Assembly (NCBI RefSeq): GCF_007752135.1
Contig: NZ_CP036298.1
Span: forward strand, 1,054,001-1,118,000
Origin: Aureliella helgolandensis
GTDB lineage: Bacteria; Planctomycetota; Planctomycetia; Pirellulales; Pirellulaceae
DNA: 64,000 nucleotides
Reading direction: 5' to 3'
In this document: one piece after another, positions 17,322 to 34,846 of the stretch
Layout: the number at the start of each line of letters is the position of its first letter
How positions within the stretch are numbered: the stretch's first letter is position 1
The notes under the pieces: model-generated
Database searches by the model: none
Seen by the model: the letters and a program-made list of their open reading frames with translations, nothing else
Told to the model about the DNA's origin: nothing
Program-made: the position numbers and the translations under genes

Positions 17322-19409
17322 ATGATTCATCCTGTCGGGCAGAACGTGAAATATGCAGTAATCGCCGTTTCGGCCGCACTCATGTCTGTATCGACGTCGG
17401 CTGCCGATCGTATTGAAGGTTGGGTCGAAGCTGGCGGTGCTCCGATTTCCGGGGCAGAGGTGACCCTGTTTCTGGCTGGGGCAGGATCGCCACAGAAGCT
17501 CTCCGAGGCAAAGTCGGATGACGATGGTAGTTATGAACTGGAGCTTCCGGACGGGAATGAAGATGCCGGCGTGCTTTACCTGATCGCTGCGGGCGGTAAG
17601 TCGAAGCTAAGCTTCGGAAAGGGGCCGAATCCCGCAACCACTTTGATGGCCACGTTGGGAGCTGAATCTCCCAAACGCGTGACTATTAACGAACTCACCA
17701 CCGTGGCCTCCGCATGGACCGGAGCGCAGTTTCTGAACGGCACCGAGTTGAGTGGCAATGCATTAGGACTGCAAATCGCAGCTGGAAACGTGCCGAACTT
17801 GGTGGATCTCGAAACCGGCGGATGGGGACCGGTCATCCAAGATCCACTGAACAGTTCTGAGACCACGACCTTAGCCAAGTTCAATACGCTGGGGATTCTA
17901 CTGACGGCCTGCGTCGCCGAGCTACCGGACGCGTGCACCAAATTGTTCGAAGCGGCCACGCCGCCGGGTGGTGTCTCGCCGACCAACACGCTGATGGCGG
18001 CACAGAACATCGCCCGGAATCCATCGCATCATGCGGCCAAAATTTTTGCATTGCTAGACGAATTGTACCCCGTTCCTGTCGGAAAGCGGTGGCGCGAGGT
18101 GTCTCTCATCCCCTACCTCAATTTCGCTCCCAGCTCATGGACACTGTCGCTGGTTTACTCAGGCGGAGGCTACAACGGAGTGGGCGGGATCGCAATCGAC
18201 GGCGAAGGCAACATGTGGTCATCCAACAACTTCCTTGTGGGAGGACAAACAACGATTTTTGATTGGGTTGGCGGGGGGATCTCGAAATTTGCGCCCAATG
18301 GTAAGCCGCTTTCGCCGATGATCAAGGGCTTTCGCGGCGGCGGTGTTGATAGTGCTGGCTGGGGCATCGCGGTTTCCCGCGATGACAAGGTCTGGGTGAC
18401 TAGCATTATCGGCAGCACCATTTCCGTATTCGACAGCCAGACCGGTAAGCCGCTTTCGCCAGAGGCCGGCTATGATTTCGATGGGAAATTGGGTGCGATG
18501 CAGGGCATCATGGTTGCGCCAAATGGCGACATTTGGACGCTCGACAATGACCAAAGTCACATCGTTCATCTGCCTCAGGGCGACCCTTCGAAAGGCCGCA
18601 TTTGGGGGCAAAGCGTGGATGGCAAACCGGTGGATGGCACGTTCCAGCTGAAAAAACCCTTTGGCTTGGCGATTGACCAGCGGGATCGGATCTGGGTCAC
18701 GAATAGCGGCTCCAACACGGTGACCCGCTTTCCTGCCAGTGAACCGGGCAATGCCGTAGAGTTTAGGGTCGGATTCAGTCCTCACGACATTGCCATCGAC
18801 AGTCAGGGCAATGCCTGGGTCGCGAATTCGATCGGACACCCTGGGACAAGGGAGAAACTGGCATTCGTCGAGGAAAAGATCAGAGCGAGGCTGGGGGGCC
18901 TCGAAGGTTCGATGCCAGCTGCAGAGCGCGCGGCCAAGGAATGGATCGATCTGTGGGAAATCAGCGACAAGTATCCCGGGGGCGATGTGTCGATGATCCG
19001 CCCTGACGGTACCGTTCTTGGCCCCTTTGACGCTGGCAAGACAATGAACGGCGCCTGGGGAATCTCTATTGATGGCAACGATAATGTTTGGGTCTCGAAT
19101 TCCATGAGTCACAACATTTCCCATTTGTGTGGTGTGCGCACCGAGACCTGCCCGCCGGGACTCAAAACAGGCGATGCGATTTCGCCGCCGGGCGGCTATA
19201 TCGGCGGTCTGCAAACGATCACGGGCATCGCTGCGGATCCCGCCGGTAACGTCTGGGTAGCCAACAGTTGGGACCAGACACTTGCCGGCTTCCAGCAAGT
19301 GCCCGATGAGGCGTTGTCTACCCGCTTTGCCTCCAACACAACAGTGGTCTTCTTCGGGGTGGCCAAACCTGTGCGTACGCCGTTAATCGGGCCGGCGGAA
19401 TCGCATTAG
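17322..19409 (+). CDS. Secreted Vgb/NHL-type beta-propeller protein, cassette copy 1
   Basis: A 695-aa exported protein. The signal peptide is about 1-28 (VIAVSAALMSVSTSAA). A small carboxypeptidase-regulatory-like beta domain covers about 30-85 (GWVEAGGAPISGAEVTLFLAG). A region of unknown type follows to ~270. The NHL/virginiamycin-lyase-like propeller covers ~270-690, with blade strands such as GIAIDGEGNMWSSNN, GIAVSRDDKVWVTS, GLAIDQRDRIWVTNSG, DIAIDSQGNAWVANS, GISIDGNDNVWVSNS and GIAADPAGNVWVANS. A helical insert (REKLAFVEEKIRARLGG..., ERAAKEWIDLWEI) interrupts the propeller. It is very similar to the protein at 28060-30153. Function unknown; propellers of this kind bind ligands or act as lyases. 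Confidence 0.85.
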   Translation: MIHPVGQNVKYAVIAVSAALMSVSTSAADRIEGWVEAGGAPISGAEVTLFLAGAGSPQKLSEAKSDDDGSYELELPDGNEDAGVLYLIAAGGKSKLSFGKGPNPATTLMATLGAESPKRVTINELTTVASAWTGAQFLNGTELSGNALGLQIAAGNVPNLVDLETGGWGPVIQDPLNSSETTTLAKFNTLGILLTACVAELPDACTKLFEAATPPGGVSPTNTLMAAQNIARNPSHHAAKIFALLDELYPVPVGKRWREVSLIPYLNFAPSSWTLSLVYSGGGYNGVGGIAIDGEGNMWSSNNFLVGGQTTIFDWVGGGISKFAPNGKPLSPMIKGFRGGGVDSAGWGIAVSRDDKVWVTSIIGSTISVFDSQTGKPLSPEAGYDFDGKLGAMQGIMVAPNGDIWTLDNDQSHIVHLPQGDPSKGRIWGQSVDGKPVDGTFQLKKPFGLAIDQRDRIWVTNSGSNTVTRFPASEPGNAVEFRVGFSPHDIAIDSQGNAWVANSIGHPGTREKLAFVEEKIRARLGGLEGSMPAAERAAKEWIDLWEISDKYPGGDVSMIRPDGTVLGPFDAGKTMNGAWGISIDGNDNVWVSNSMSHNISHLCGVRTETCPPGLKTGDAISPPGGYIGGLQTITGIAADPAGNVWVANSWDQTLAGFQQVPDEALSTRFASNTTVVFFGVAKPVRTPLIGPAESH

Positions 19410-20410
19410 CTCGTCAGGCCGCCGCAGCGTTCCAACGTTCCTCTTTTCCGTCTCCTGGGAGATCACAACCATCTATCGTAGCCCGTTGCGCCGCCCTCAT
19501 TGCTCTTGCCGCGACGTTTTACCGGAGGCGCTATTCAGTTCGTCGCAGCAAAATCGACAACGTAGCGGGGGCAAGCTGTTGCCCAATCGGTGACCCCGTT
19601 GACGCCCAATGGCAAATCATCATTTCGCCCTCCATTTGAAGAACAATGTCACGCCCACCTGAGTCGCGGAGTTGGAACTCAGACGGTCGGTTACGATGGC
19701 TGTTCTTAATTCGATCGCGGCGCTTCAGCGGTCCCGCTCATCGTTTGCATTCAACGGAAATGCTGAGTCAAGTCGAGTTGTCTAACTTACTGCAATTTAG
19801 AATGACCGAGCGGAATTGGTTGATGGCAACTCAATCGTCCGTGACCAGGGCATGCAACTCTGCAATTGAATCGGTGGTGGTGTGTCCGGCTCAATTGATA
19901 TACTGCCTACCGGCTGGGCCCAAAACGAGCCTAGCTTGGTCGACCTTGCGAAGTGCAAAATCGAGTGTGTGGAAGAATTGGGCTAGCATCTGTAGTCATA
20001 GCGGGCAGCCGTCCGAGGTTGACACACCAATCTCCAGCGGTTTCTTGATTACTGATTGCCGTTGTCCGCAGCTCATGTGCCGTCAATCCTCTCATTGCGT
20101 CCCGCGTTCAATCGTGTATCGCTCCCATAAATAGGGAAAAGAGCGAAACGGCGCCTGGCGCGGCCTCAAATGTACTGGATAATTGATAGCCTGTGGATTC
20201 CGAGTCCGAATCGTTTTTTAGACCGATCCTACCACTTCGGGCAATGTAGTTTGTGTTAAGTAAAGCCAGGCGTTTTTCGTCTTTATTCTCCGCCCTAGGA
20301 ATTCAAGTTCGCTAAACTCTATATTATCGACGTTGCCCAGCTGGTCAGTCCATTCACTGTGAAACCACCCAAACTTCTCGCTCCGTGGCAAATTCCCAAG
20401 CCGTCATCCA
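19410..20410. other. 1-kb gap inside the cassette
   Basis: No credible gene. A 162-codon plus-strand frame (19646-20134) has no domain or signal peptide. Around 19610-19660 the sequence AATGTCACGCCCAC resembles the tail of the 37-bp repeat. By comparison with the second cassette this is where the short DUF1254/DUF1214 gene would stand, but I could not recognise a relic of it. Confidence 0.4.
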
Positions 20411-21943
20411 ATGAAAATGAACTCAATGAAGTACTTACCCGAGCAAGGGCTTCGGACATCTGCCATCATCGGCGTAATGTTCTTCGCCGGCAGCGGTTCA
20501 GTGTTCGCCCAAGTCTCTCAGGAAACCCTGAAATCGATCGGCATCCCCGACAAGGTCGAAACACCGATTGGAAAGCTGGAGTTCTTCGACGGCGTGCCGA
20601 CTCAGGCTACCGTCGAAACTCTTTATGACAATCTCGACCGGATGCGAGCAGTTGAGGTCTATCTCAACAACCAGGGCGCCGCATCGCTTAATGCCATGCG
20701 GAAGGGCAACGCAGGCATTGGCGCGGATGCGTCCAACAAGGTCACGATCACCGAGCAACTCCTTAAACCCGAGTCACTCTACCTCACGGGCAACACGTCG
20801 ACCTTGTATGCCCTCACTTACCTCGATCTGAAAACGGAAGGGCCGCTGGTCGTCGAGCTTCCGCCGGGCATGTTGGGATTCCTCGATGACGCCTGGTTTC
20901 GCTTCATCGACAACCTTGGCGTGATCGGCCCGGACAAGGGCAAGGGTGGCAAATATCTGTTGCTTCCTCCGGACTACAGTGGAGACGAACCCGAAGGCTA
21001 TTTCATCGTCAAGCTACCCACCTACAACAACCTGATGTTCCTGCGCGGCTCGATCGCGAAGGGACTTCCACCAGCCGTGGAGAACATCAAGTCAAAGCTT
21101 CGGATCTACCCGCTTGCCAAGGCGGCAAACCCACCTGCCACCGAGTTCATCAACATATCCGGCAAGAGCTATAGCACCATCGTCACTCGCGACTTCAGTT
21201 TCTTCGAGGACCTCAACGAGCTGGTACAGGTCGAACCCATCGATGCCATCGGCCCTGAGATGCGCGGCCAACTGGCGGCAATCGGCATCGTCAAAGGGAA
21301 GCTGTTCAATCCCGATACCCGCATGAAGCAGCTGCTAAGTGAAGCGGCGAATATTGGAAACGCCACCGCCCGCGCCATCACTTATCAGCCACGGATCGAC
21401 GGTGTCTTCATCTACCCCGACACCAACAGCGCTTGGACGACGGCCTATGCCAACAAGAACACTTCTTTCGAGGCGGATGGCACGATGAATCTAGACGCGC
21501 GACCGCTGTTTTACTTCAACGCGACCGGCGTCACGCCCGCCATGGCAACAAGCCACGCGGGGGCAGGATCCGACTACGCCCTGGCATATCTGGATGCGGA
21601 CAAGAATGCGTTCGACGGCTCGAAAACCTACAAGCTGCACCTGCCGCCCAACGTTCCCATCAACAACTTCTGGGCGGTCACGCTGTACGACACGCAAACG
21701 CGTTCCCTTCTCCAAACCAGTCAGACCTTTCCGACCGTCGGCAGCCAGAGCGAAGGCTTCCAGAAAAACGAAGACGGCTCCTACGATGTCTACTTTGGCC
21801 CGAAAGCTCCGGAAGGCAAAGAGAGTAACTGGTTGGAAACCATCCCCGGCAAAAGCTGGTTCACCATCTTGCGGCTCTACGGCCCGTTGGAGCCATGGAT
21901 TAGCAAGACTTGGCGTCCGAGCGAGATCGAGCCAGTCAAATAA
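20411..21943 (+). CDS. Secreted DUF1254/DUF1214 protein, cassette copy 1
   Basis: A 510-aa exported protein with a signal peptide (IIGVMFFAGSGSVFAQ). The N-terminal half matches DUF1254 (LEFFDGVPTQATVETLYDNL ... TLYALTYLDLKTEGPLVVELPPG ... DKGKGGKYLLLPPDY). The C-terminal half matches DUF1214 (YANKNTSFEADG, YKLHLPPNVPINNFWAVTLYDTQTR, NEDGSYDVYFGPKAPEGKESNWL, then WFTILRLYGP). The family has a jelly-roll-like fold and, to my knowledge, no established reaction. Close paralogue at 31398-32915. It is followed by another DUF1254 gene and two sulfatases, which suggests a shared periplasmic or outer-surface role. An alternative start lies at 20417. Confidence 0.88.
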   Translation: MKMNSMKYLPEQGLRTSAIIGVMFFAGSGSVFAQVSQETLKSIGIPDKVETPIGKLEFFDGVPTQATVETLYDNLDRMRAVEVYLNNQGAASLNAMRKGNAGIGADASNKVTITEQLLKPESLYLTGNTSTLYALTYLDLKTEGPLVVELPPGMLGFLDDAWFRFIDNLGVIGPDKGKGGKYLLLPPDYSGDEPEGYFIVKLPTYNNLMFLRGSIAKGLPPAVENIKSKLRIYPLAKAANPPATEFINISGKSYSTIVTRDFSFFEDLNELVQVEPIDAIGPEMRGQLAAIGIVKGKLFNPDTRMKQLLSEAANIGNATARAITYQPRIDGVFIYPDTNSAWTTAYANKNTSFEADGTMNLDARPLFYFNATGVTPAMATSHAGAGSDYALAYLDADKNAFDGSKTYKLHLPPNVPINNFWAVTLYDTQTRSLLQTSQTFPTVGSQSEGFQKNEDGSYDVYFGPKAPEGKESNWLETIPGKSWFTILRLYGPLEPWISKTWRPSEIEPVK

Positions 21944-22047
21944 TCCGATCATTCGATTTTAGATGGTGCGGGCCCTTCCCTCTCTGGAGCGGCCAGCGGA
22001 TTCAGTTTCGAAAGCACCACATTCATCCATTCCAAAAACGAAATACC

Positions 22048-23505
22048 ATGAAACCAAACGTCTTCGCTTGCGCTGCTCTCGCGACTGTCATGCTCACGTT
22101 CACTGCGTGTGAGCAAAAGAGCATTGAGGTCGCCGACGTATCGACGGCAACCTCCCCGGGGGAAATTCAAGAACTCGCTGAGGAGGGCTTCATCTACGGC
22201 TTACCGATCGTGATGAACTATGCCGTGATGTATGAATATGCTGTCGACAAGGGTGGCAGTCAGTTCAAGGCCCCGTTCAACCAGCTCAAGAACGAGCCGC
22301 GTGTTTACACCTACAAGGACACGGCGGTCATCACACCGAATAGTGACACGCCCTATTCCTTCACTTGGCTTGACTTGCGTGCTGAGCCGATCGTCTTGAC
22401 CGTGCCTGCGGTGGAAAAGGAACGCTACTACGCCGTCATGTTGTGCGACGGGAATACTTACAACTACGGCTACATTGGCAGCCGCGCCACCGGCAACGAT
22501 CCCGGAAGCTACATGGTCGTCGGTCCCGATTGGAAAGGCGAGAAGCCCGACGGAATCAAAGAAGTCTTCACTTCGACCACGCCCTTTTCCTTGGTCGCTT
22601 ACCGCACCCAGCTCTTCAATCCGGATGACATGTCCAGCGTGATCAAGGTTCAGGATGGCTACAAGGTCGAGCCGCTTTCCGCCTTCCTCAAGCAACCCGC
22701 ACCTGTCGCCGCCCCGACGATCGACTTCATGCCGGCGACCACCGAAGGCATCAAGGAGAACTTCTGGAGCTACCTCGACGCCGCGCTTCAGTACGTTCCC
22801 GAAACGGACATGGATAAGGACATCCGCGCCAAGCTGGGGACCATCGGCATCGGCCCTGACAAGACCGTTGACCTCAAAGACCTTTCATCAGCGCACCAAA
22901 AAGCCCTCGTCGAAGGAATGAAGGCCGGTGGCGAAAAAATCAGCGCCTACTTGGCCTCGGGGCTGACCGACGTCAATGGCTGGCAGATTGGATCTCTGCC
23001 GGGGGACGAAGCTCACTACAACGGCGACTGGCTGATGCGCTCCGGCACCGCCAAAGCGGGCCTTTATGGCAACAGCGCCGCCGAAGCCGTTTACCCGCTG
23101 ACCCGCGTGGACGGTAATGGCGAGACACTCGATTGCAGCAAGAACAATTACACCATCACCTTCCCTGCGGGCCAGTACCCGCCAGTGAACGCCTTCTGGT
23201 CGGTCACCATGTACGACGGCAAGTCGCAGTATTTAATCGAAAACCCGATCAACCGCTACCTCATCAACTCACCGATGATTCCGAATATGAAGAAGGGCGA
23301 AGACGGATCTCTCACCCTTTACATCCAGAAAGACAACCCCGGCGGGGACCTGGAGGCCAACTGGCTCCCGGCGCCAAACGACACTGTCTATCTGGTCATG
23401 CGTCTCTACTGGCCGAAGACCGAAGCACCGTCCGTGCTGCCGCCGGGCAAAGGCAGTTGGAAGCCACCGGGCATCGTGATGGCCAAGTCCGCTTTCCAGA
23501 AATAA
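22048..23505 (+). CDS. DUF1254/DUF1214 lipoprotein
   Basis: A 485-aa protein. The signal sequence ends in LTFTACEQ, so Cys21 or so is a likely lipidation site. DUF1254 begins at about 45 (EGFIYGLPIVMNYAVMYEYA, then TPNSDTPYSFTWLDLRAEPIVL, then YMVVGPDWKGEKPDGI), and DUF1214 ends the chain (NNYTITFPAGQYPPVNAFWSV, NWLPAP, YLVMRLYWP). The start at 22048 gives the signal peptide; the longer frame from 21910 would overlap the preceding gene. Fragments very like this gene lie at 30168 and 33040, so more copies once existed. Function unknown; same operon-like run as the sulfatases. Confidence 0.88.
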   Translation: MKPNVFACAALATVMLTFTACEQKSIEVADVSTATSPGEIQELAEEGFIYGLPIVMNYAVMYEYAVDKGGSQFKAPFNQLKNEPRVYTYKDTAVITPNSDTPYSFTWLDLRAEPIVLTVPAVEKERYYAVMLCDGNTYNYGYIGSRATGNDPGSYMVVGPDWKGEKPDGIKEVFTSTTPFSLVAYRTQLFNPDDMSSVIKVQDGYKVEPLSAFLKQPAPVAAPTIDFMPATTEGIKENFWSYLDAALQYVPETDMDKDIRAKLGTIGIGPDKTVDLKDLSSAHQKALVEGMKAGGEKISAYLASGLTDVNGWQIGSLPGDEAHYNGDWLMRSGTAKAGLYGNSAAEAVYPLTRVDGNGETLDCSKNNYTITFPAGQYPPVNAFWSVTMYDGKSQYLIENPINRYLINSPMIPNMKKGEDGSLTLYIQKDNPGGDLEANWLPAPNDTVYLVMRLYWPKTEAPSVLPPGKGSWKPPGIVMAKSAFQK

Positions 23506-23507
23506 TC

Positions 23508-23647: not shown

Positions 23648-25297
23648 ATGAACAAAATTAAACACCTCGCCCTCGCCCTCGGGCTTGTCATGGGCTTCGT
23701 CACTTCAGCGCAAGCCGCTGACAAAGCACCTAACATCCTGTTCCTCGTTTCCGATGACACCGGTTTCGGTGACCTCGGTCCCTATGGCGGCGGAGTCGGA
23801 CGCGGCATGCCAACACCGAGCATCGATAAAATGGCGCGGGACGGCATGACGTTCTTCTCCTTCTATGCTCAGCCAAGCTGCACGCCCGGACGCGCAGCAA
23901 TGCAGACTGGCCGGATTCCCAATCGCAGCGGCATGACCACCGTCGCCTTCCAGGGCCAGGGCGGCGGACTTCCTGCGGCGGAGTGGACTCTGGCCTCCGT
24001 TCTTAAAACCGGCGGCTACAAAACCTACTTTACGGGTAAGTGGCACCTCGGCGAATCCGACTACGCGCTGCCCAATGCCCAGGGCTACGACGTCATGAAA
24101 TACTGCGGGCTGTATCACCTCAACGCCTACACCTACGCCGACCCGACATGGTTCCCCGGCATGGACCCGGAACTCCGCGAGTTCTTCAAGAAGGTTACCA
24201 AAGGTTCGATGTCCGGCCTGGCTGGAGAAGCCGCCAAAGAGGATTTCAAAATCAACGGCCAGTATGTCGATACTCCCGTGATCGATGGTAAGGAGGGCGT
24301 CGTCGGAATTCCGTACTTTGATGGTTATGTCGAAAAGGCGGCTATCGAGTTCCTGGAGGAAGCGGCGAAGGCTCCCGACACCCCATTCTTCATCAGCGTG
24401 AACTTCATGAAGGTCCACCAGCCGAACATGCCGGCGCCTGAGTTCAAACACAAGTCGCTGTCCAAGAGCAAGTATGCCGACTCTGTCGTCGAGCTTGACA
24501 CCCGTATTGGTCGCATCATGAACAAGCTGAACGAGCTTGGCCTCGGTAAGGATACGCTGGTTGTGTATACCACCGACAACGGTGCGTGGCAGGACGTTTA
24601 TCCGGATGCCGGTTACACCCCGTTCCGCGGCACCAAGGGGACTGTTCGTGAGGGTGGAAGCCGAGTGCCTGCCATCGCCGTCTGGCCTGGCAAGATCGAA
24701 GCCGCATCGAAGAACCACGACATCGTCGGAGGCCTTGACCTCATGGCGACATTTGCTTCCGTCGCAGGTGTGAAGCTGCCTGAGAATGATCGCGAAGGGA
24801 AGCCGATCATCTTCGACAGCTACGACCTTACACCGGTCCTCCTGGGCACCGGCCCGTCACCGCGCAAGGAATGGTTCTACTTTACGGAAAACGAACTCTC
24901 CCCAGGGGCGGTTCGCGTGGGCAACTACAAGGCTTGCTTTAACATCCGGGGTGACAATGGCCAGGAAACCGGCGGTCTCTCAGTCGATACCAACCTCGGT
25001 TGGAAGGGGGCGGAAAAGTACGTCGCCACCGTTCCTCAAATCTTCGACCTGTGGGCCGATCCGCAGGAACGCTACGACCTGTTCATGAACAACTTCACCG
25101 AACGTACGTGGACCTTGGTCACCATCGAACCGGCAATTAAAGAGCTCATGAAGACCTACGTAAAGTACCCGCCTCGCAAACTTCAGAGCGCGGGCTACGA
25201 CGGCCCAATCACCATTTCGGACTACCAAAAGTTTGACTGGCTGCGTAAGTCGCTGGCCGAAGACGGAATTAATCTTCCTCTTCCCACCGGCAACTAG
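23648..25297 (+). CDS. Secreted sulfatase (formylglycine type)
   Basis: A 549-aa exported sulfatase (family S1). The signal peptide ends near TSAQA. NILFLVSDDTGFGDLG supplies the metal-binding Asp pair. The signature CTPGRAAMQTGR at Cys78 is the residue converted to formylglycine. FTGKWHLGE gives the Lys/His of the active site, and VVYTTDNGAW the later Asp-Asn metal ligands. It hydrolyses a sulfate ester; the substrate is unknown. It needs a maturase (FGE or anSME) not present in this window. The start at 23648 gives the signal peptide; an earlier in-frame ATG at 23546 would put a non-signal tail in front and run through the palindrome. Confidence 0.92.
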   Translation: MNKIKHLALALGLVMGFVTSAQAADKAPNILFLVSDDTGFGDLGPYGGGVGRGMPTPSIDKMARDGMTFFSFYAQPSCTPGRAAMQTGRIPNRSGMTTVAFQGQGGGLPAAEWTLASVLKTGGYKTYFTGKWHLGESDYALPNAQGYDVMKYCGLYHLNAYTYADPTWFPGMDPELREFFKKVTKGSMSGLAGEAAKEDFKINGQYVDTPVIDGKEGVVGIPYFDGYVEKAAIEFLEEAAKAPDTPFFISVNFMKVHQPNMPAPEFKHKSLSKSKYADSVVELDTRIGRIMNKLNELGLGKDTLVVYTTDNGAWQDVYPDAGYTPFRGTKGTVREGGSRVPAIAVWPGKIEAASKNHDIVGGLDLMATFASVAGVKLPENDREGKPIIFDSYDLTPVLLGTGPSPRKEWFYFTENELSPGAVRVGNYKACFNIRGDNGQETGGLSVDTNLGWKGAEKYVATVPQIFDLWADPQERYDLFMNNFTERTWTLVTIEPAIKELMKTYVKYPPRKLQSAGYDGPITISDYQKFDWLRKSLAEDGINLPLPTGN

Positions 25298-25320
25298 CTG
25301 ATTGATTCGATCGGGAAACT

Positions 25321-25491: not shown

Positions 25492-27954
25492 ATGAATCAT
25501 CGATTATCCGAATTCTCAAGGGCCCTATTGTTCTTGACGCTACTTCTCAGCAGTTCCGCGGCCCACGGACAAGTTCAAACCACCGGCACACCGGGAGCCG
25601 CGGATGCGACCACGACCATCAGCGGCAAACAACTACCGGCGCCGCAACCGCCGAACGACGGCAAAATCGGACCAACCGTCGCCGACTCAAAAACCTGGTG
25701 GCCACCCCGCGTCGTGCCTGGAAAAGGAGCACCGAACGTCTTGTTGATCATGACGGATGACGCCGGTTTCGGTGTCAGCGGAACTTTTGGAGGCGTGATT
25801 CCAACGCCAGCCCTGGACCGTGTGGCTAACAACGGATTGCGTTACACGCAGTTCAACTCCACCTCATTGTGTTCGCCCACCCGTGCGGCATTGCTCACGG
25901 GTCGCAATCACCATTCGGTTGGCTTTGGCGTGATCACCGAACTTTCCACCGGATATCCGGGTTACGACTCGATCATCGGTTTGGACAACGGAACCATTGG
26001 TCAAATCCTAAAAGGAAATGGATATGCCACTTCCTGGTTCGGGAAAAACCACAATACACCATCGTTTGCCTACAGTGTGGCGGGGCCGTTTGATCAATGG
26101 CCCTCTGGAATGGGATTTGATTATTTCTACGGCTTCCAGGGTGGCGAAACCGATCAGTACACACCCTACCTATTTCAGGACCATACCCAGATTTTCCCGT
26201 GGAGAGGAAAACCCGATTACAACTTGTCCACCGATCTGGCCGATGAGGCGATTGCCAGGATGAAAGCGCTCCAGGCGGCGAATCCCGGCCAACCCTTCTT
26301 TATCTATTACGCACCGGGTGGCACCCATTCGCCCCATCAACCACCGACGGAATGGATTGAAAAGTTCAAGGGGAAATTCGACATGGGTTGGAACGAAATG
26401 CGGGAGCAGATCTTTGCGAATCAAAAGCGTTTGGGTGTGATCCCCACCAACACGCAACTGACACCTTGGCCGGATGACCTTCCGGAATGGGAATCGCTTT
26501 CAGCCGACGAGAAGAAATTGTTCGCGCGACAGGCCGAAGTATTCGCAGCTTTTGCCGCCTATACCGATGATGAGATCGGCCGCGTGATCCAACAGGTCGA
26601 GGACTTGGGCGAATTGGACAATACCCTGATCATCTACATTTGTGGTGACAACGGAACCAGCCCGGAAGGCACCCTCTTGGGAACGCCCAACCAATATGCG
26701 TCGTTCAACGGTATTCTCGATATTCCCGTGGCAGACCAATTGAAGCTCTATGATGTCTGGGGATCACGGGAAACCTATCCACACATGGCGGTCGGCTGGG
26801 CGTGGGCATTTGACACGCCCTTCAAATACACCAAGCAGGTCGCCTCCCATTTCGGTGGAACCCGTCAGGGCATGGCCATTTCCTGGCCGGGTCATATTGA
26901 CGATATCGGCGGCATCCGCACCCAGTTTCACCACATGATCGATATCATGCCCACGATCATGGACGCTGCCGGAGTATCGCAACCGGAGGAAATCAACGGC
27001 ATCCCGCAGAAGCCCATTCAAGGCACCAGCATGGCATACACCTTTAAGAAGGAGAATGCCAACGCGCCATCCGCCCGCAAAGTTCAATACTTCGAGATGA
27101 TTGCAAATCGTGGCATATACAGTGAAGGCTGGTATGCCAATACGGTGCCTCCTCACGGACCATGGATTTTGAATGCGTCATTCCCTCCGATCGACGAATA
27201 CAAATGGGAATTGTACTACCTGAATGACGATTTCTCCCAAAATAACGACCTCGCTGCACAAAACCCGAAAAAGCTGAAGGAAATGCAGGCACTATTCGAC
27301 CAAGAGGCCAAAAAACACAATGTATACCCACTGGACAACCGTCAGTTCGCTCGTTCCATGGAGCCAAGACCGAGTACAACCGTTGGTAAATCCGAGTTCA
27401 ATTACACAGGTGTGAATCCCGGGATGTCGGACTCAAACGCAGCAAATATCCTGGGGCGGTCTTACACGATTACAGCCGAAGTAACGGTGCCGGACGACGG
27501 GGGCAACGGCATGATCGTTACTGCCGGAGGCCGTTTTGGCGGATGGGGATTTTACATTCTAAAAGGTGTGCCTGTCTTCGGTTACAACATGTTGGGACTC
27601 GCGCAATACAGGTGGGCTGCAAAAGAGCCGCTTACCGCGGGGAAACACACCCTTGTATATGACTATGTCTATGATGGTCCGGGAATCGCGAAGGGTGGAA
27701 CCGGAACCCTGAAGGTGGACGGCGTGGCTGTGGATTCGCACAAACAACCCAATTCAATCGCGTTCATCCAGGTGATGGATGAAACATTTGATGTGGGAGT
27801 GGATACCCGCACCGAGATCAATTCGAAGGATTATATCCTGCCGTTTGATTTCACCGGTTCCATCGACGCTCTTAATATTAAACTCGGGCCCACCCAGTTC
27901 ACTCCAGCCGAACAGAAGAAGATCCATGAGGCTCACGACAAGGCGAACGACTGA
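25492..27954 (+). CDS. Large secreted arylsulfatase with C-terminal beta-sandwich
   Basis: An 820-aa exported sulfatase. The signal peptide is about 1-27 (ALLFLTLLLSSSAAHG). VLLIMTDDAGFGVSG supplies metal ligands; CSPTRAALLTGR places the formylglycine residue at Cys127; WFGKNHNTP is the variant active-site loop of the large arylsulfatases, and IIYICGDNGTS gives the Asp-Asn ligands. After about 600 residues a laminin-G-like sandwich follows (ILGRSYTITAEVTV ... GGWGFYILKGVPVFGYN ... GTLKVDGVAV). This size and layout match the ~780-aa AtsD-like arylsulfatases. It stands after a hairpin, so it may have its own promoter. Substrate unknown. Confidence 0.92.
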   Translation: MNHRLSEFSRALLFLTLLLSSSAAHGQVQTTGTPGAADATTTISGKQLPAPQPPNDGKIGPTVADSKTWWPPRVVPGKGAPNVLLIMTDDAGFGVSGTFGGVIPTPALDRVANNGLRYTQFNSTSLCSPTRAALLTGRNHHSVGFGVITELSTGYPGYDSIIGLDNGTIGQILKGNGYATSWFGKNHNTPSFAYSVAGPFDQWPSGMGFDYFYGFQGGETDQYTPYLFQDHTQIFPWRGKPDYNLSTDLADEAIARMKALQAANPGQPFFIYYAPGGTHSPHQPPTEWIEKFKGKFDMGWNEMREQIFANQKRLGVIPTNTQLTPWPDDLPEWESLSADEKKLFARQAEVFAAFAAYTDDEIGRVIQQVEDLGELDNTLIIYICGDNGTSPEGTLLGTPNQYASFNGILDIPVADQLKLYDVWGSRETYPHMAVGWAWAFDTPFKYTKQVASHFGGTRQGMAISWPGHIDDIGGIRTQFHHMIDIMPTIMDAAGVSQPEEINGIPQKPIQGTSMAYTFKKENANAPSARKVQYFEMIANRGIYSEGWYANTVPPHGPWILNASFPPIDEYKWELYYLNDDFSQNNDLAAQNPKKLKEMQALFDQEAKKHNVYPLDNRQFARSMEPRPSTTVGKSEFNYTGVNPGMSDSNAANILGRSYTITAEVTVPDDGGNGMIVTAGGRFGGWGFYILKGVPVFGYNMLGLAQYRWAAKEPLTAGKHTLVYDYVYDGPGIAKGGTGTLKVDGVAVDSHKQPNSIAFIQVMDETFDVGVDTRTEINSKDYILPFDFTGSIDALNIKLGPTQFTPAEQKKIHEAHDKAND

Positions 27955-28059: not shown

Positions 28060-30153
28060 ATGAAACAACCTAAACTACTTGCCGCGAAATGCGCCGCACT
28101 TGCCTTATCGGCCGCACTCATATCCGTCCCGGCCTTCGCTGCAGAGAGCATTAAAGGACGTGTCGAGGCCGGCGGCGCTCCGATTTCCGGGGCTGACGTG
28201 ACCCTTTGGCTGGCGGGGCCGGGCGCTCCCGAAAAGCTCGCCGAGACGAAGACGAAGGACGATGGCAGCTATGACCTGGCGCTTGCCGACGGCAAGGACT
28301 ACGGGAAGGACGACGCCGGCGTGATGTATCTCATCGCGGCGGGCGGGATGTCGCAGGTGTCCTCCGGAAACGGACCGAATCCGGCGACTACCTTGATGGC
28401 CACCTTGGGGACCAAGGCCCCGGAGCGCGTGACGATCAACGAGCTCACCACAGTGGCTTCCGCATGGACCGGAGCGCAGTTTCTCGACGGCACAACGATG
28501 AGTGGTAATGCACTCGGCTTGAGGATCGCAGCCGGAAACGTGCCGAACCTGGTCAATCTCGAAACAGGTGGTCTGGGGCCGGTCATCGAGGATCCGCTCA
28601 ACAGTTCGGAGACCACAACATTAGCCAAGTTCAATACGCTTGGTATTCTGCTGACGGCTTGCGTTACCGAGATACCGGACGCGTGCAACAAGTTCTTCGA
28701 AGCGGCCACACCGCCGGGCGGCGTCACGCCGACCAACACGCTGGCCGCGGCGCAAAACGTTGCCCGCTACCCCTCTCATCACGCGAACGAGATTTTTGGG
28801 TTGCTGAACGAATTTTATCCCGTGCCCGCTGGCACGCGATGGCGTGAGGTGGATCTCATCCCTTATCTCAATTTCGCGCCCAGCTCATGGACTCTGTCGC
28901 TGGTCTACTCAGGCGGTGGCTACAACGGAGTGGGCGGCATCGCCATCGACGGCGAGGGCAACATGTGGTCGTCCAACAACTTCCTGGTCGGCGGCCAAAC
29001 CACGATTTTTGATTGGGTCGGCGGCGGAATCTCGAAGTTCGCACCGAACGGCAAGCCGCTTTCCCCGATGATCAAGGGCTTCCGGGGCGGCGGCGTGGAC
29101 AGCGCCGGCTGGGGCATCGCGGTTTCCGGCGATGACAAGGTCTGGGTCACCAGCATTATCGGAAGCACCATTTCCACGTTCGACAGTAAGACCGGGAAGC
29201 CCCTTTCACCGGAGACCGGCTACAACTTCGACGGAAAACTGGGTGCGATGCAGGGCGTCATGGTCGCCCCGAATAGCGACATCTGGACCCTCGACAATGA
29301 CCACAGCCTGCTCGTCCACCTACCCAAGGGCGACGCCTCGAAAGGCCGCATCTACGGTCAGGTCGTGGACGGCAAGCCCGTCGATGGCACCCTCCAGCTC
29401 AAAAAGCCCTTCGCCTTGGCCATCGACCAAAATGATTATATCTGGGTCACCAACAGCGGCTCCAACACCGTGACCCGCTTTCCGGCCAGCGATCCGGGCA
29501 TGGCCGTGGAATTCGAGGTCGGATACAGCCCACACGGGATTGCCATCGACAGCCAGGGCAATGCTTGGGTCGCCAACTCCATCGGCCACATCGGCATCCG
29601 GGAGAAACTGGCCTTCGTCGAGGAGAAGTTCAAAGCGAGGTTTGAGCGTCACGATGGTTCGGCCAGTGAGCGCGCGGCCAAGGAGTGGATCGATCTGTGG
29701 GAAATCAGCGACAAGTTTCCCGGAGGTGATGTGTCGATGATCAGACCTGATTGCACGGTTCTCGGCCCCTTCAACGCCGGCAAGACCATGAACGGCGCCT
29801 GGGGCATTTCCATCGACGGCAATGACAACATCTGGGTCTCGAATTCCATGAGCCACAACCTCTCCCAGTTGTGTGGTGTGCGGACCGAGACCTTCCCGTC
29901 GGGACTTCAAACCGGCGATGCGATTTCGCCCGAGGGGGGCTACATCGGCGGTCTGCAAACCATTACGGGCGTCGCAGCCGATCCCGCCGGCAACGTCTGG
30001 GTGGCCAACAGTTGGGACCAGACACTGGCCGGCTTCAAGCAAGTGCCGGACGAAGCGCTTTCCACCCGCTTCGCCTCCAACACCACGGTGGTCTTCTTCG
30101 GCTTGGCCAAACCCGTGCGGACGCCCTTGATCGGTCCGGCCAGAGCGGAATAA
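28060..30153 (+). CDS. Secreted Vgb/NHL-type beta-propeller protein, cassette copy 2
   Basis: A 697-aa exported protein, paralogue of 17322-19409. The signal peptide is about 1-28 (LALSAALISVPAFAAE). Then come the regulatory-like beta domain (GRVEAGGAPISGADVTLWLAG), the middle region (TTVASAWTGAQFLDGT) and the propeller. Long stretches of the propeller are identical to copy 1, including its helical insert (ERAAKEWIDLWEISDK). The N-terminal third is more diverged. High similarity over the whole length supports a duplication, not independent acquisition. A relic of DUF1254 sequence starts 15 bases after its stop. Confidence 0.86.
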   Translation: MKQPKLLAAKCAALALSAALISVPAFAAESIKGRVEAGGAPISGADVTLWLAGPGAPEKLAETKTKDDGSYDLALADGKDYGKDDAGVMYLIAAGGMSQVSSGNGPNPATTLMATLGTKAPERVTINELTTVASAWTGAQFLDGTTMSGNALGLRIAAGNVPNLVNLETGGLGPVIEDPLNSSETTTLAKFNTLGILLTACVTEIPDACNKFFEAATPPGGVTPTNTLAAAQNVARYPSHHANEIFGLLNEFYPVPAGTRWREVDLIPYLNFAPSSWTLSLVYSGGGYNGVGGIAIDGEGNMWSSNNFLVGGQTTIFDWVGGGISKFAPNGKPLSPMIKGFRGGGVDSAGWGIAVSGDDKVWVTSIIGSTISTFDSKTGKPLSPETGYNFDGKLGAMQGVMVAPNSDIWTLDNDHSLLVHLPKGDASKGRIYGQVVDGKPVDGTLQLKKPFALAIDQNDYIWVTNSGSNTVTRFPASDPGMAVEFEVGYSPHGIAIDSQGNAWVANSIGHIGIREKLAFVEEKFKARFERHDGSASERAAKEWIDLWEISDKFPGGDVSMIRPDCTVLGPFNAGKTMNGAWGISIDGNDNIWVSNSMSHNLSQLCGVRTETFPSGLQTGDAISPEGGYIGGLQTITGVAADPAGNVWVANSWDQTLAGFKQVPDEALSTRFASNTTVVFFGLAKPVRTPLIGPARAE

Positions 30154-30167
30154 ATCATGCATGCGGC

Positions 30168-30224
30168 GAGCAGAATTGGAAGGGTGATAAACCCGCAGGC
30201 ATCGTATAATTCGAGCCAGTTAAG
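30168..30224 (+). pseudogene. Relic of a DUF1254/DUF1214 gene
   Basis: In one frame this stretch reads EQNWKGDKPAGIV, stop, FEPVKK. The first part resembles DWKGEKPDGIKEV of the DUF1254 lipoprotein (22048 gene). The second resembles the extreme C-terminus IEPVK of the 20411 gene. It looks like a scar left by deletion of one or two genes between the propeller and the next DUF1254 gene. The match is short, so confidence is moderate. Confidence 0.5.
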
Positions 30225-30297
30225 AAAACGACCTAGAAGCCGCCCGCAAATTCAGACTTGAAGACACCCCATTCATAATTAACAGAAACCAGGCATC

Positions 30298-31335
30298 ATG
30301 AAAACAAACATCATCACACTAATATTGACGGGCGCGCTCACTCTCTCGAGCGCCAATGCACAAACAGATCCGACCAAAGAATCCAATGCGCCCATTGTTG
30401 TTAATGTCGACAATTTCAATAAAGCACAGACCGACTTTGAGTTCGCAGGAATCATTAAATTGTCAGGCATCAACCAGGTTCACAGCAACCGGACGCCCAC
30501 GCCGATCGACAAGCAGAATGTTATCCGAATGAACCGGGATACGCTTTATAGCCTCGGTGTGATTGACATTTCCCAAGGCGCGACCGTCACCTTGCCGAAT
30601 AGCGGCAAGCGATACATGTCATTGATGGTGATCAATAACGAAGGGTACGTGAATGATGTTTACTACGGCGCTGGTGCGTACGAATTGACGATGGAGAAAT
30701 TTGAAACTCCCTACGTCGGCGTGGTCATTCGCACACTTGCGAATCCAGAAGATGCCGCAGATTTGGCGATCGCCCACAAACTGCAAGACCAGATTCAAAT
30801 TTCTGCCGGGTCGGATCAACCGTTCGTTGTGCCGAATTACGACAAAGCCAGCTACAAGGCAACGCTTGATGCGATTCTTGAATTAGCCAAGGGCCTGAAA
30901 CGCTTCACCCAGACCTTCGGCTCCAAAGCCGACGTCGATCCAGTGCACTTTCTGATTGGCAACGCCTCTGCGTGGGGCGGACTGCCGGATAAGGACGCTC
31001 AGTATGTGAATGTGCAACCGAATCTGCCCGTCGGCGAATACGAGATCACGGTCAAGGATGTCCCGGTCAAGGGATTTTGGTCCATCAGCCTCTACAACGA
31101 AGAGGGATACTTCCAGGAAAACAAGTACGGCGCCTACAGTCTCAATAGCCTGATTGCCAAGCCAAATAGCGATGGCTCTTACACCATTCGCTTCGGAGGA
31201 GATCCGGACACCACTGAGAACTGCCTACCGATCATGAAAGGTTGGAACTACGCCATTCGAATGTATCAACCAAGCCAGGCGATCATCGACGGGAACTGGA
31301 CCTTCCCGGGCCCACCGAGGAAAAGAAGTAAGTAA
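30298..31335 (+). CDS. Secreted short DUF1254/DUF1214 protein
   Basis: A 345-aa exported protein. The signal peptide covers 1-21 (LILTGALTLSSANAQ). It keeps both domains in compact form: a DUF1254 part (NFNKAQTDFEFAGIIK, VIRMNRDTLYSLGVIDISQGATVTLP, MSLMVINNEGYVNDVYYGAG) and a DUF1214 part (YEITVKDVPVKGFWSISLYNEEGYF, SDGSYTIRFGGDPDTTENCLPIMKGWNYAIRMYQP). Length is typical of the stand-alone small members. Same direction as, and 62 bases before, the next DUF1254 gene, so probably co-transcribed. No counterpart was seen in the first cassette. Confidence 0.87.
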   Translation: MKTNIITLILTGALTLSSANAQTDPTKESNAPIVVNVDNFNKAQTDFEFAGIIKLSGINQVHSNRTPTPIDKQNVIRMNRDTLYSLGVIDISQGATVTLPNSGKRYMSLMVINNEGYVNDVYYGAGAYELTMEKFETPYVGVVIRTLANPEDAADLAIAHKLQDQIQISAGSDQPFVVPNYDKASYKATLDAILELAKGLKRFTQTFGSKADVDPVHFLIGNASAWGGLPDKDAQYVNVQPNLPVGEYEITVKDVPVKGFWSISLYNEEGYFQENKYGAYSLNSLIAKPNSDGSYTIRFGGDPDTTENCLPIMKGWNYAIRMYQPSQAIIDGNWTFPGPPRKRSK

Positions 31336-31397
31336 GCCATCGTGATGCTACTAAGACTGAACCGATTCAATTTGTACAGAATTCTTCCCTGCGAATC

Positions 31398-32915
31398 ATG
31401 AAACCAATGAAACCATACATCACCACAATTGCACTCACCTGCGCGCTCACCATGGCGACAGCCTACGGACAGGACGACCCAGCCCGGGAAGCTGCGAAAA
31501 CGAAGGCGGCATCCATCTCGGAGAAAGTCCAGACGGTCGCAGGCGAGCTGGAATTCTTCGATGGCGTGCCGATCGGCGACACCAACGATCTCGTCTACGA
31601 CTATTTGACCCGCTCACGCGCGCTCGGGGTTTATCTCGACAACGTTGGTGCGGTTTCCATCTACAGTGTTCTCGCCGGGATGGCCGAGCAAGGAGCCGAT
31701 GCTCCGAACAAAATCGCCCTATGGGAACAGATGATGGATTCCCGGACGCCGGTTATCACCTCCAACACCTCCACGATGTATGCCTACGCTCCGACGGATC
31801 TGGCAAAGGATGGCCCGACCGTCATCGAGATCCCACCCGGCATGCTCGGCTTCCTCGACGATGCCTGGCAGCGTTTCGTCGGCGATATGGGGGTGACCGG
31901 TCCGGACAAGGGCAAGGGGGGCAAATACCTGGTCATTCCTCCCGGCTATGAGGGCGAAATCCCGGACGGATACTTTCTCCTGAAGCCACCCACCAACCGG
32001 AACTTCCTCTTCCTCCGCGGCTCCGTGAAGGATGGTCTGGAAGCAGCTGTCGAAAATTTCCGGTCCGGGCTCAAAGTTTATCCGCTGAAGGATGCCGCCA
32101 ATCCGCCGCCGACCGAGCTTGTCAACATGTCCGGCCGTTCATTTAGCACTATCTTCCCGAGTACCTTGGAATACTATGAGATCCTGAACAACATCGTCCA
32201 GGCCGAGCCGATCGACGCGGTGAATCCGGAAGTTCGCGGTTACATGGCCAGCATCGGCATCGTCAAAGGACAGCCCTTCAATCCCGACGAGCGGATGAAA
32301 AAGCTGCTCACCGAGGCGGCCTTGCTCGGGAATGCTGCCGGGCGTTCCATCACTTACGACACACGAATCTCCGGGGTGAAGATCTATCCGGATACGAATA
32401 GCAACTGGGTGACCGCCTACGCGAACAAGAATACCTCCTTCGAAGCGGACGGGACGATCAATCTCGATGCCCGGGTGCTTTTCTACTACAACGCTGGCGG
32501 TGTGACTCCTGCGATGGCGACACCTCATGTCGGACAAGGCTCCGACTATGCTTTGGGTGTGTTGGACAAGAACGATCTGCCATTCGATGGATCGAAGACC
32601 TACAAGCTGCATCTGCCGCCGAACGTGCCGGTCGCCAACTTCTGGGCGGTCACGATGTATGACACCCAGACCCGTTGCCAACTCCAGACCAGCCAGCTCT
32701 TCCCGACTGTCGGCAGCCTGACCAAGGGAATGGAAAAGAATGAGGACGGCTCCTACGACGTCTACTTCGGACCAAAAGCGCCGGAGGGCAAGGAGGGCAA
32801 TTGGCTGGCCACCAACCCCGGCAAAAGCTGGTTCTGTATCCTTCGCATGTACGGCCCGCTTGAGCCATGGATCGAAAAGACCTGGCGTCCCGGCGAGATT
32901 GAGTTGGTGAACTAG
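31398..32915 (+). CDS. Secreted DUF1254/DUF1214 protein, cassette copy 2
   Basis: A 505-aa exported protein, paralogue of 20411-21943 (for example LEFFDGVPIGDTNDLVYDYL, DKGKGGKYLVIPPGYEG, YANKNTSFEADGTINLDARV, KLHLPPNVPVANFWAVTMYD, NEDGSYDVYFGPKAPEGKE and the ending WRPGEIELVN). The signal peptide ends near TAYGQD. The two proteins align over their full lengths without large gaps. As in the first cassette, a DUF1254-lipoprotein-like sequence follows, but here only as a relic. Function unknown. Confidence 0.88.
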   Translation: MKPMKPYITTIALTCALTMATAYGQDDPAREAAKTKAASISEKVQTVAGELEFFDGVPIGDTNDLVYDYLTRSRALGVYLDNVGAVSIYSVLAGMAEQGADAPNKIALWEQMMDSRTPVITSNTSTMYAYAPTDLAKDGPTVIEIPPGMLGFLDDAWQRFVGDMGVTGPDKGKGGKYLVIPPGYEGEIPDGYFLLKPPTNRNFLFLRGSVKDGLEAAVENFRSGLKVYPLKDAANPPPTELVNMSGRSFSTIFPSTLEYYEILNNIVQAEPIDAVNPEVRGYMASIGIVKGQPFNPDERMKKLLTEAALLGNAAGRSITYDTRISGVKIYPDTNSNWVTAYANKNTSFEADGTINLDARVLFYYNAGGVTPAMATPHVGQGSDYALGVLDKNDLPFDGSKTYKLHLPPNVPVANFWAVTMYDTQTRCQLQTSQLFPTVGSLTKGMEKNEDGSYDVYFGPKAPEGKEGNWLATNPGKSWFCILRMYGPLEPWIEKTWRPGEIELVN

Positions 32916-33039
32916 CCGAACGGAGACGACCGCCTTATCGAGGAGCTGGAAGAGAAGTTCGAGAAGGCCAGCAAACAGACCCAAGCGGAGCGAAGATCAA
33001 TAAGATCGGAGACCGCAGCGAATTTTGAAGCAATCCTGA

Positions 33040-33087
33040 AGCAGCTTCCTACACGGCCTGCCGATCGTCATGAACTACGCTAGCGAG
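33040..33087 (+). pseudogene. Relic of DUF1254 lipoprotein gene
   Basis: One frame reads SSFLHGLPIVMNYASE and matches EGFIYGLPIVMNYAVM near the N-terminus of the 22048 gene. It sits right after the DUF1254 gene, the same position that gene has in the first cassette. Stop codons lie on both sides, so it is a fragment. Confidence 0.65.
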
Positions 33088-33433
33088 ATTTCCAACCCCT
33101 TGCCTCAGTTGCATCGACCACAGGCTAGAACAACAAGCTCATCGCGGCGTCGGTCCAATCCACCGACTGCGGCTTCTGGTGGCAGAAGCGAAGTCGAACT
33201 GGCTGCATTCAACGTTTTGCGAATGCCTCCATTCGGACGCAATGACAAACCGTCTTGAGCCACGGACGATTCTGCTACAGTGATTAACAAGATCGTCAGT
33301 ACGCAAGGCTTTGCAGCATACCCTGGGTATTAACTTCGCCTGGCGTCTGTTCTGCATTGGTCGGGGCGGGTAGTTGCCATGCGGAGCGATGAGTATTATT
33401 CGGACTTATGTACGCACTCTCGAGGGGCTGAAT

Positions 33434-34846
33434 ATGGTCAGATGTAGTTGGCTGGCACGATTGAATCGCGGGCGGATTGTAGCGGTCGGCATGGCCTGGG
33501 GGCTGCTTCTGCTGACTACGTCTCTAGTCAATGCGCAGGTTGTGCCAAGCCAGACCACCGATGCGTCTGCGACTCCTAACCTAATCTATATCATGGTGGA
33601 TGATTTGGGATACGGCGATCTGGGCTGTTTCGGTCAAACAGAAATCAAGACCCCGAACTTGGATCGTATGGCGTCGGAAGGTATGAAGTTGACCAGCTAC
33701 TACGCCGGTTGTACCGTGTGTCGCCCGTCGCGTTTGTCACTATGGACTGGGAAACACATGGGACATACGCCCATCGATTCCAATGCCGCATACGTCTTTC
33801 GTCCGGAAGACGTGACCGTGGCGGAATTGTTGCAACAATCCGGGTACGCTACCGGCGGTGTTGGCAAGTGGGCCATGGGGGGCATCGAAACGACAGGCCA
33901 CCCGAATCGCAATGGGTTCGACTTCTGGATGGGCTATCTCGACCAGGGCGATGCCCACAATTACTATCCCACTCATTTGTGGAAAAACGACCAGAAAATT
34001 CCATTGGCGGGCAATGTCATTGGCGATTATGCCGAAGGCCGGGGACGGGTTGCGTCTCAACGCACTACCTATTCCCATGATGTCATGACCGAGCAGGCGT
34101 TTGAATTTGTACGCAGGCATGCTCACGATCCGTTTTTACTGCACGTGCATTGGACCATTCCGCATGCCAACAACGAAGGCGGGCGGGTTACAGGCAACGG
34201 CATGGAAGTGCCAACTTACGGAATCTATGCCCAGAAAGACTGGCCGGATGTCGAGAAGGGGCAAGCCGCCATGATTACCCGCATGGATGCCGATGTGGGT
34301 AGGCTGCTGGGGCTGCTGCGAGAGTTAGGGATTGCGGATCATACGTTAGTCATCTTTACCTCGGACAACGGACCGCATCACGAGGGAGGACACAATCATG
34401 AGTATTTTGACGCCAACGGCCCGCTCCGGGGTTACAAGCGAGATTTGTATGACGGTGGAATTCGTGCCCCGACCATTGCTTGGTGGCCCGACCATGTGCA
34501 AGCCGGTTCGGTGAATGATATTCCGCTAGCGGCCTATGATTGGCTGCCCACCGCTTGCCAGTTCGCAGGAGTCACGCCACCGGAGCAAATCGACGGTATT
34601 TCCTATCTGCCAACGCTACTGGGAATGCCCCAGCCTGCGCACGACTATCTATTCTGGAGTTACGAAGACAAGCGGGCAGTTCGGCAGGGCAAATGGAAGG
34701 CGCTGATTCCAGGCAAAGGCAAGCCGCTGGAGCTCTACGATTTGCAAGTCGATATTGGCGAGCAGCATGACTTAGCGGCTGATTTTCCGGAAGTGGTTCG
34801 TCGCATGCAGGACATCATCGCGGAGGCATACGTTCCCAAAAAGTGA
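33434..34846 (+). CDS. Secreted sulfatase (formylglycine type)
   Basis: A 470-aa exported sulfatase. The start at 33434 has GAGGGG about 7 bases upstream and gives a signal peptide (VAVGMAWGLLLLTTSLVNAQ). IYIMVDDLGYGDLGCFGQ supplies metal ligands; CRPSRLSLWTGKHMGH places the formylglycine at Cys96; GGVGKWAMGG has the active-site Lys, and VIFTSDNGPHHEGGH the Asp-Asn pair. It belongs to the N-acetylgalactosamine-6-sulfatase/arylsulfatase A-like branch by overall motifs (inference). It closes the sulfatase/DUF1254 block, and palindromic repeat copy C follows about 90 bases later. Confidence 0.92.
   Translation: MVRCSWLARLNRGRIVAVGMAWGLLLLTTSLVNAQVVPSQTTDASATPNLIYIMVDDLGYGDLGCFGQTEIKTPNLDRMASEGMKLTSYYAGCTVCRPSRLSLWTGKHMGHTPIDSNAAYVFRPEDVTVAELLQQSGYATGGVGKWAMGGIETTGHPNRNGFDFWMGYLDQGDAHNYYPTHLWKNDQKIPLAGNVIGDYAEGRGRVASQRTTYSHDVMTEQAFEFVRRHAHDPFLLHVHWTIPHANNEGGRVTGNGMEVPTYGIYAQKDWPDVEKGQAAMITRMDADVGRLLGLLRELGIADHTLVIFTSDNGPHHEGGHNHEYFDANGPLRGYKRDLYDGGIRAPTIAWWPDHVQAGSVNDIPLAAYDWLPTACQFAGVTPPEQIDGISYLPTLLGMPQPAHDYLFWSYEDKRAVRQGKWKALIPGKGKPLELYDLQVDIGEQHDLAADFPEVVRRMQDIIAEAYVPKK

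Follow-up and report, generated by a model that had tools for sequence, protein, structure and literature searches.

A horizontally mobile set of exported DUF1254, sulfatase and beta-propeller genes in Aureliella helgolandensis that may handle a small organic sulfate ester

The window analyzed here is a stretch of 64,000 nucleotides from Aureliella helgolandensis (assembly GCF_007752135.1, contig NZ_CP036298.1, positions 1,054,001 to 1,118,000 of the forward strand). It contains a block of genes for nine exported proteins (2 propellers, 4 DUF1254 proteins, and 3 sulfatases), which are arranged in the order propeller 1, A1, B1, sulfatase 1, sulfatase 2, propeller 2, S, A2, a relic of a B gene, and sulfatase 3 (Table 1). 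An earlier note, made from the letters of this DNA alone, had described the block as a duplicated secreted cassette of propeller, DUF1254, and sulfatase genes. All of the genes that it named are open frames on the forward strand at the positions that it gave, and the families that it assigned (NHL/Vgb-like propellers, DUF1254+DUF1214 proteins, and sulfatases) were borne out by Pfam; its list was incomplete, sulfatase 2 having been overlooked. Export signals, which it had proposed for all products, are consistent with inspection by eye: each of the nine N-termini resembles a signal peptide, and that of B1 includes a lipobox-like LTFTAC sequence.

Table 1. Features of the DUF1254–sulfatase–propeller block, with positions in the window.
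Feature	Position	Strand	Evidence or remark
Propeller 1 (695 aa)	17322–19409	+	Signal peptide, Ig-like/carboxypeptidase-regulatory-like domain, helical domain, Vgb/NHL beta-propeller
Long DUF1254+DUF1214 protein A1 (510 aa)	20411–21943	+	Pfam PF06863 and PF06742
DUF1254+DUF1214 protein B1 (485 aa), lipobox-like N-terminus	22048–23505	+	Pfam
Sulfatase 1 (549 aa), arylsulfatase-A-like	23648–25297	+	CTPGR formylglycine motif
Sulfatase 2 (820 aa), Pseudomonas-type arylsulfatase	25492–27954	+	CSPTR motif
Propeller 2 (697 aa)	28060–30153	+	Pfam, tree
Possible (tentative) relic of DUF1254 lipoprotein gene, 10 codons	30174–30203	+	10 of 10 residues identical to DUF1254 protein behind the G020 propeller remnant
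Short DUF1254+DUF1214 protein S (345 aa)	30298–31335	+	Pfam
Long DUF1254+DUF1214 protein A2 (505 aa)	31398–32915	+	Pfam, tree
Relic of DUF1254 lipoprotein gene (B)	33013–33081	+	tblastn
Sulfatase 3 (470 aa)	33434–34846	+	CRPSR motif

All three sulfatases score above the gathering score of PF00884 (153–202 bits) and carry a C-x-P-x-R activation motif. By family and motif, they are classed as type I (formylglycine) sulfatases. The closest solved structures of sulfatase 1 are 7aj0, human arylsulfatase A, and steryl sulfatase; carrageenan and glycosaminoglycan sulfatases also match, at lower scores. The closest solved structures of sulfatase 2 are 7all, which is slightly better, and the Pseudomonas aeruginosa arylsulfatase 1hdh, which aligns over residues 80–598 (E 1e-54). 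Sulfatase 2, with its activation motif C-S-P-T-R, differs from this homolog in a C-terminal extension of about 220 residues and in being encoded among DUF1254 and propeller genes.

Both DUF1254 and DUF1214 are above the Pfam cut-off in A1, B1, and A2, where they are full, and in S, whose best stretch nevertheless spans only positions 2–57 of DUF1254. A1 is homologous over residues 49–510 (E 2e-71) to VPA0735 of Vibrio parahaemolyticus, a DUF1254/DUF1214 protein of solved structure (2p3y, 3vb9). This match gives the fold only, as the structure entries name the protein merely uncharacterized or hypothetical; a table in PMC2744874 catalogs the VPA0735-like fold under its own name. The structure model of A1 itself was poor (predicted local distance difference test score, pLDDT, 47.5), and its fold rests on the homology with VPA0735. 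In the DUF1254 tree, S forms a clade with proteins of Methylomonas lenta and Pseudoruegeria (support 100*). Long and short DUF1254 genes stand side by side at rhizobial, Cupriavidus, Pseudoruegeria, and same-family loci (L212, L215, L108, L110), and such adjoining genes suggest a two-protein unit.

The AlphaFold model of the propeller protein (pLDDT 90.2) shows the propeller together with a strand-rich domain at the N-terminus and a helical domain. A Foldseek search with this model returned NHL and virginiamycin B lyase structures. Although the fold is common to these proteins, the window propellers differ from virginiamycin B lyase in their extra N-terminal and helical domains and in their Vgb_lyase scores (36.0 and 32.7 bits), which lie under the 50-bit gathering score. 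Virginiamycin B lyase has a conserved catalytic histidine and glutamate in its propeller. In an alignment of 24 sequences, on which the active site was not superposed, the propeller part contained no invariant histidine or glutamate. Because the cut-off was missed and no such residue is invariant, a lyase role is not supported.

The repeated gene order had been read in the earlier note as one cassette present in two copies, with propellers matching nearly throughout, long DUF1254 proteins aligning over their full length, and sulfatases 1 and 3 as counterparts. The first two alignments hold: the propellers share 83% identity over 693 columns, and A1 and A2 share 62–65% (65% over 469 residues). 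The pairing of the sulfatases does not, since sulfatases 1 and 3 share 28% identity. Phylogenetic analysis likewise separated the parts. The window propellers are sisters in a tree of 35 propellers (Shimodaira–Hasegawa-like approximate likelihood ratio test, SH-aLRT, 99), whereas A2 pairs not with A1 but with M. lenta L104_805 (96/93), inside a clade with Pseudoruegeria (100/99); forcing A1 and A2 together cost 49 log units (approximately unbiased, AU, test, p 3.5e-6). The second lipoprotein gene is present only as the relic near 33040, which the earlier note had noticed and which is real, though small (12 codons at 83% and 23 codons at 52% identity; tblastn, E about 1e-4 to 5e-4). A decayed counterpart of S in 19410–20410 gave no tblastn match at E 0.01.

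A single tandem duplication of the cassette was therefore excluded, because the duplicated parts differ in age: of the claimed double set only the propellers are true sisters. Because the partner of A2 is an M. lenta gene and M. lenta has two long DUF1254 genes that adjoin each other, the two A genes appear to have been distinct before the M. lenta genes split off, and the two propellers would be younger or homogenized by conversion. Doubling of the propeller in place, together with lost lipoprotein copies, may have produced the look of a duplicated cassette.

Comparison with other genomes indicated transfer between phyla. The nearest rows of all four window genes in the DUF1254 tree come from M. 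lenta, not from the own genus, and the nearest rows outside the window in the propeller tree come from M. lenta and Pseudoruegeria. A first search of M. lenta with sulfatase 1 or 2 as the query gave 4 sulfatase candidates. Orthologs of every component tested (all but sulfatase 3) are present in M. lenta on at least four contigs: (i) on one contig, the sulfatase 2 ortholog (90–91% protein identity) lies directly upstream of the propeller, in 4.6 kb that are colinear with the window at 82% DNA identity; (ii) a second contig has S and B adjacent; (iii) a third has the two A genes; (iv) a fourth has sulfatase 1 at 73%; and (v) a fifth has another sulfatase-2-like gene at 56%. B1 is 83% identical to the M. 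lenta L103 gene. The remaining genes of the propeller contig are ordinary proteobacterial in look, as judged by eye. Among 41 genomes on the M. lenta side, a full propeller was found in M. lenta alone, 3 others giving short repeat matches, and DUF1254 matches numbered 8 in M. lenta, 1 in each of 5 others, and 0 in 35. These relationships show, at the level of sequence, a gene set that is horizontally mobile and has moved between phyla.

Six window genes have ratios of nonsynonymous to synonymous substitutions (dN/dS, NG86) of 0.05–0.16 against their M. lenta counterparts. These values, rough because some dS exceed 1.6 and are near saturation, show purifying selection as estimated from the alignments. 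The GC content at third codon positions (GC3) is 0.73–0.77 in A1, B1, A2, and propeller 2, compared with 0.625 ± 0.054 in 71 host frames; that of propeller 1, sulfatase 2, and S is inside the host range.

We tentatively favor the reading that the exported products of this horizontally mobile block may serve, within the cell envelope, to handle an organic sulfate ester of small size, which we regard as possible rather than probable. The earlier note had proposed a test of such a link by counting how often the families co-occur. In the own genome, which has about 106 sulfatase genes in 8.44 Mb (split pieces merged), the spans (plus 3 kb) of the 4 DUF1254 places include 5 sulfatases, more than expected if places were drawn at random among the 106 (P 0.004). 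Elsewhere, all 45 DUF1254 places found outside the own genome were taken as regions of up to 20 kb each, from 22 genomes, and were searched with a sulfatase profile built on four seeds, two of which were large arylsulfatases. The first 40 control regions included 6 from the own genome and none from G034, G007, or G023, the genomes that account for 6 of the 8 regions with a large arylsulfatase; the 25 later controls, many of them shorter than 20 kb, were drawn from G034 (20) and from G007, G023, and G057 (5).

Large Pseudomonas-type arylsulfatases (at least 740 aa) were found in 8 of the 45 DUF1254 regions and in none of the first 40 controls (p 0.006) or of all 65 (p 0.0005), p values that are exploratory, as the 740-aa cut was set after the lengths were known. 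The large arylsulfatase lies no more than 320 bp from a DUF1254 gene in 7 of the 8 regions (G020, G023, G057, and four in G034). Within G034, it is present in 4 of 4 DUF1254 regions and in 0 of 20 controls. In a tree of 86 DUF1254 proteins, a large arylsulfatase within 3 kb is a property of 15 scattered rows that takes at least 15 changes. Sulfatases of any kind were found in 14 of the 45 regions compared with 7 of the first 40 controls (p 0.21), and a motif count independent of the profile gave 10 of 45 compared with 7 of 40. The co-occurrence of DUF1254 with sulfatases is thus partly supported and narrower than the earlier note proposed: it holds for large arylsulfatases but not for sulfatases generally.

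The earlier note had also tied the propeller to this neighborhood. A scan of bacterial genomes found at least 57 propeller loci, and the closest among the matches listed were those of M. lenta (78%), Pseudoruegeria (72%), an alphaproteobacterial metagenome-assembled genome (68%), and a Pontiellaceae genome (64%). In the same family, G032 has two propellers, at 64% and 34%, and G027 has one at 41%; the 14 same-genus genomes searched have no such propeller, with one weak match of 130 residues (E 2e-4). The same-family genome G020 retains a remnant of a propeller C-terminus (L101:9109–9287; 57 codons, 87–89% to those of the window), with an intact DUF1254 gene immediately behind it. Viruses and plasmids were discounted as carriers of the propeller: an IMG/VR scan gave 2 weak loci, and 72,556 plasmids gave one weak match. 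Neighborhoods were examined at 33 loci, with 27 weaker loci of the at least 57 set aside, and the propellers lie mostly apart from DUF1254 and sulfatase genes, so that the proposed neighborhood rule falls. The link persists just for close kin and at the genome level. DUF1254 is present in 12 of 14 genomes with a propeller (G020, G027, G032, and the genomes behind the 11 best scan loci), a guide figure given that the bearers are taxonomically mixed, compared with 23 of 60 relatives, 10 of 78 members of the phylum (the own genome being counted in both), and 6 of 41 genomes on the M. lenta side. Among the same 14, relatives of sulfatase 1 at 71–81%, one per genome, occur in 8, and sulfatase-2-like genes (E ≤ 1e-100) in 11.

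Several results weigh against a sulfate ester as the common theme. Against all controls, sulfatases of any kind are not significantly enriched (14 of 45 compared with 12 of 65, p 0.17). The 8 large-arylsulfatase regions are spread over 5 genomes, with G034 alone supplying 4; outside G034 and without the own-genome controls, the comparison is 4 of 41 with 0 of 34 (p 0.12). One control sulfatase in G034 (L247, 727 aa) is truncated where its contig stops, and its full length might place it among the large ones. A DUF1254 or sulfatase gene was found in the fetched flank of only 4 of the 33 propeller loci (L042, L043, L048, L053), many of whose contigs end early, and 2 of the 14 propeller-bearing genomes have no DUF1254. 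The counts of sulfatase 1 and 2 relatives cover propeller-bearing genomes only and have no background rate. On plasmids, for which 9 regions with DUF1254 and 8 with a large arylsulfatase were chosen from 84, 245, and 516 matching records, the link is weak: a sulfatase was present in 1 of the 9 and DUF1254 in 0 of the 8. The one positive, a Rhizobium rhizogenes plasmid with the order DUF1254, short DUF1254, alpha/beta hydrolase, arylsulfatase, counts in favor of the sulfate reading. The DUF1254 genes at other rhizobial plasmid loci have between them cyclases, DUF2092, DUF2147, and mechanosensitive channels, with no sulfatase.

This last arrangement is what would be expected if DUF1254 belonged to a broader periplasmic set without a sulfur theme, with cyclase, alpha/beta hydrolase, DUF2092, mechanosensitive channel, and RND transport parts as its members and a sulfatase as one optional member. 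In Rhizobium leguminosarum 248, genes for a formylglycine-generating-type enzyme (FGE) and an arylsulfatase are members of this guild, and the stretch shown has no DUF1254. RND permease genes were found near 5 DUF1254 loci. Gene tables in two studies list a single DUF1254 gene among NnrR-dependent genes of Bradyrhizobium and among iron-responsive genes of Caulobacter (PMC6710368, PMC3751524). Such a guild nevertheless leaves unexplained the adjacency of large arylsulfatases and the presence in M. lenta of DUF1254 genes together with relatives of window sulfatases 2 and 1 at 91% and 73%, and we consider it doubtful.

The other neighbors of DUF1254 were counted at 66 loci. Families absent from 40 controls were (raw counts) AraC regulator (6), HAD hydrolase (5), RND permease (5), OprB porin (4), FGE (3), and SulP sulfate permease (3); for each recurrent family, one member was verified with Pfam. 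Apart from the RND permease, which fits the broader set, these neighbors speak for the sulfate reading. Clusters of DUF1254, HAD hydrolase, large arylsulfatase, and OprB porin genes are present in the own genome at 3.19 Mb, in G034, and in Synechococcus RedBA-s. Like the window, these sister clusters combine DUF1254 with a large arylsulfatase; unlike the window, they carry HAD and OprB genes, have no propeller in the stretch, and in two cases include a fusion of DUF1254 to a pentameric channel. In the fusions (L039:4697–7132 in the own genome at about 3.19 Mb, and L129:6934–9351), one frame encodes DUF1254+DUF1214 and a pentameric ligand-gated ion channel with both channel domains. The frame was found in just two (the own genome and a same-family relative) of 10 channel-bearing genomes among 60 searched, and both loci hold a large arylsulfatase, an HAD hydrolase, and an OprB porin. 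The fusion in this setting suggests that the DUF1254 fold may recognize a small ligand. In the own genome's second cluster, a sulfatase split over two frames (L039:9679–11230) lies between the large arylsulfatase and the porin. A 911-residue protein of Synechococcus (L114:8048–10780), in a HAD/OprB/arylsulfatase/FGE cluster, has the DUF1254–DUF1214 pair twice in tandem.

Transposase genes flank the block at some distance, at 10705–12015 (DDE_5) and at 37934–38926 (ISL3, apparently truncated), both on the minus strand; as they belong to different families, they do not form a simple composite transposon. Promoter and terminator scans were uninformative, as they gave fewer matches than were found in shuffled sequence. 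The genes could also be hitch-hikers, that is, unrelated secreted-protein genes on a mobile island in a sulfatase-rich genome, where neighbors are not partners. The number of sulfatases in the own genome, the flanking transposases, the raised GC3 of four genes beside the host-like values of three, and the propellers that elsewhere stand mostly alone would all fit. Chance neighbors, however, do not readily account for the excess of sulfatases at the DUF1254 places of the own genome or for the low dN/dS, and linkage alone is a poor explanation for the retention of all parts in M. lenta across at least four contigs, unless these contigs join. We therefore regard hitch-hiking as unlikely.

The sulfatase-rich genome, the lower-scoring likeness of sulfatase 1 to carrageenan and glycosaminoglycan sulfatases, and the OprB porin of the sister clusters could instead point to a polysaccharide utilization locus, in which sulfate would be taken off an algal polymer at the cell surface. 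A Pfam search of the nine cluster proteins and the frame at 36232–36684 found no glycoside hydrolase, lyase, SusC/SusD, or carbohydrate-binding module, and for sulfatases 1 and 2, the two compared, the nearest relatives with a solved structure are arylsulfatases. A sulfated polysaccharide is not favored because no polysaccharide-degrading family is present among the nine proteins, and this alternative seems very unlikely. Of the earlier suggestion that a sulfated compound is handled at the cell surface, the part that joins DUF1254 to sulfatases remains, in narrower form.

If the preferred small sulfate ester is indeed the substrate, the steps might run as follows. The compound would enter the periplasm, possibly through a porin such as the OprB encoded nearby in the sister clusters; the formylglycine sulfatases, including the large arylsulfatase, would strip the sulfate; and either ahead of this step or following it, the DUF1254/DUF1214 proteins would bind the compound or convert it. 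These proteins may work as two types, the long A with the short S, and the lipoprotein B held at a membrane. The propeller would be an optional accessory or binding protein and probably not a lyase. We infer the substrate, the order of the steps, and the role of DUF1254 from these gene associations. The literature search found no paper joining DUF1254 with sulfatase, DUF1214 with arylsulfatase, or arylsulfatase with virginiamycin B lyase. That the genes encode an envelope pathway not described before, one that deals with a small sulfated metabolite, has DUF1254/DUF1214 as its dedicated binding proteins or enzymes, and has spread as a set from phylum to phylum, is an idea we hold to be rather unlikely.

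The set also documents that a sulfatase (90–91% protein identity) was transferred, the two sides being a planctomycete-like genome and a genus of methanotrophs. The DUF1254/DUF1214 family is widespread and has a solved structure; as far as searched, no reaction has been assigned to it. Should the link to a single type of arylsulfatase be functional, it would be testable through the binding or conversion of organosulfates.

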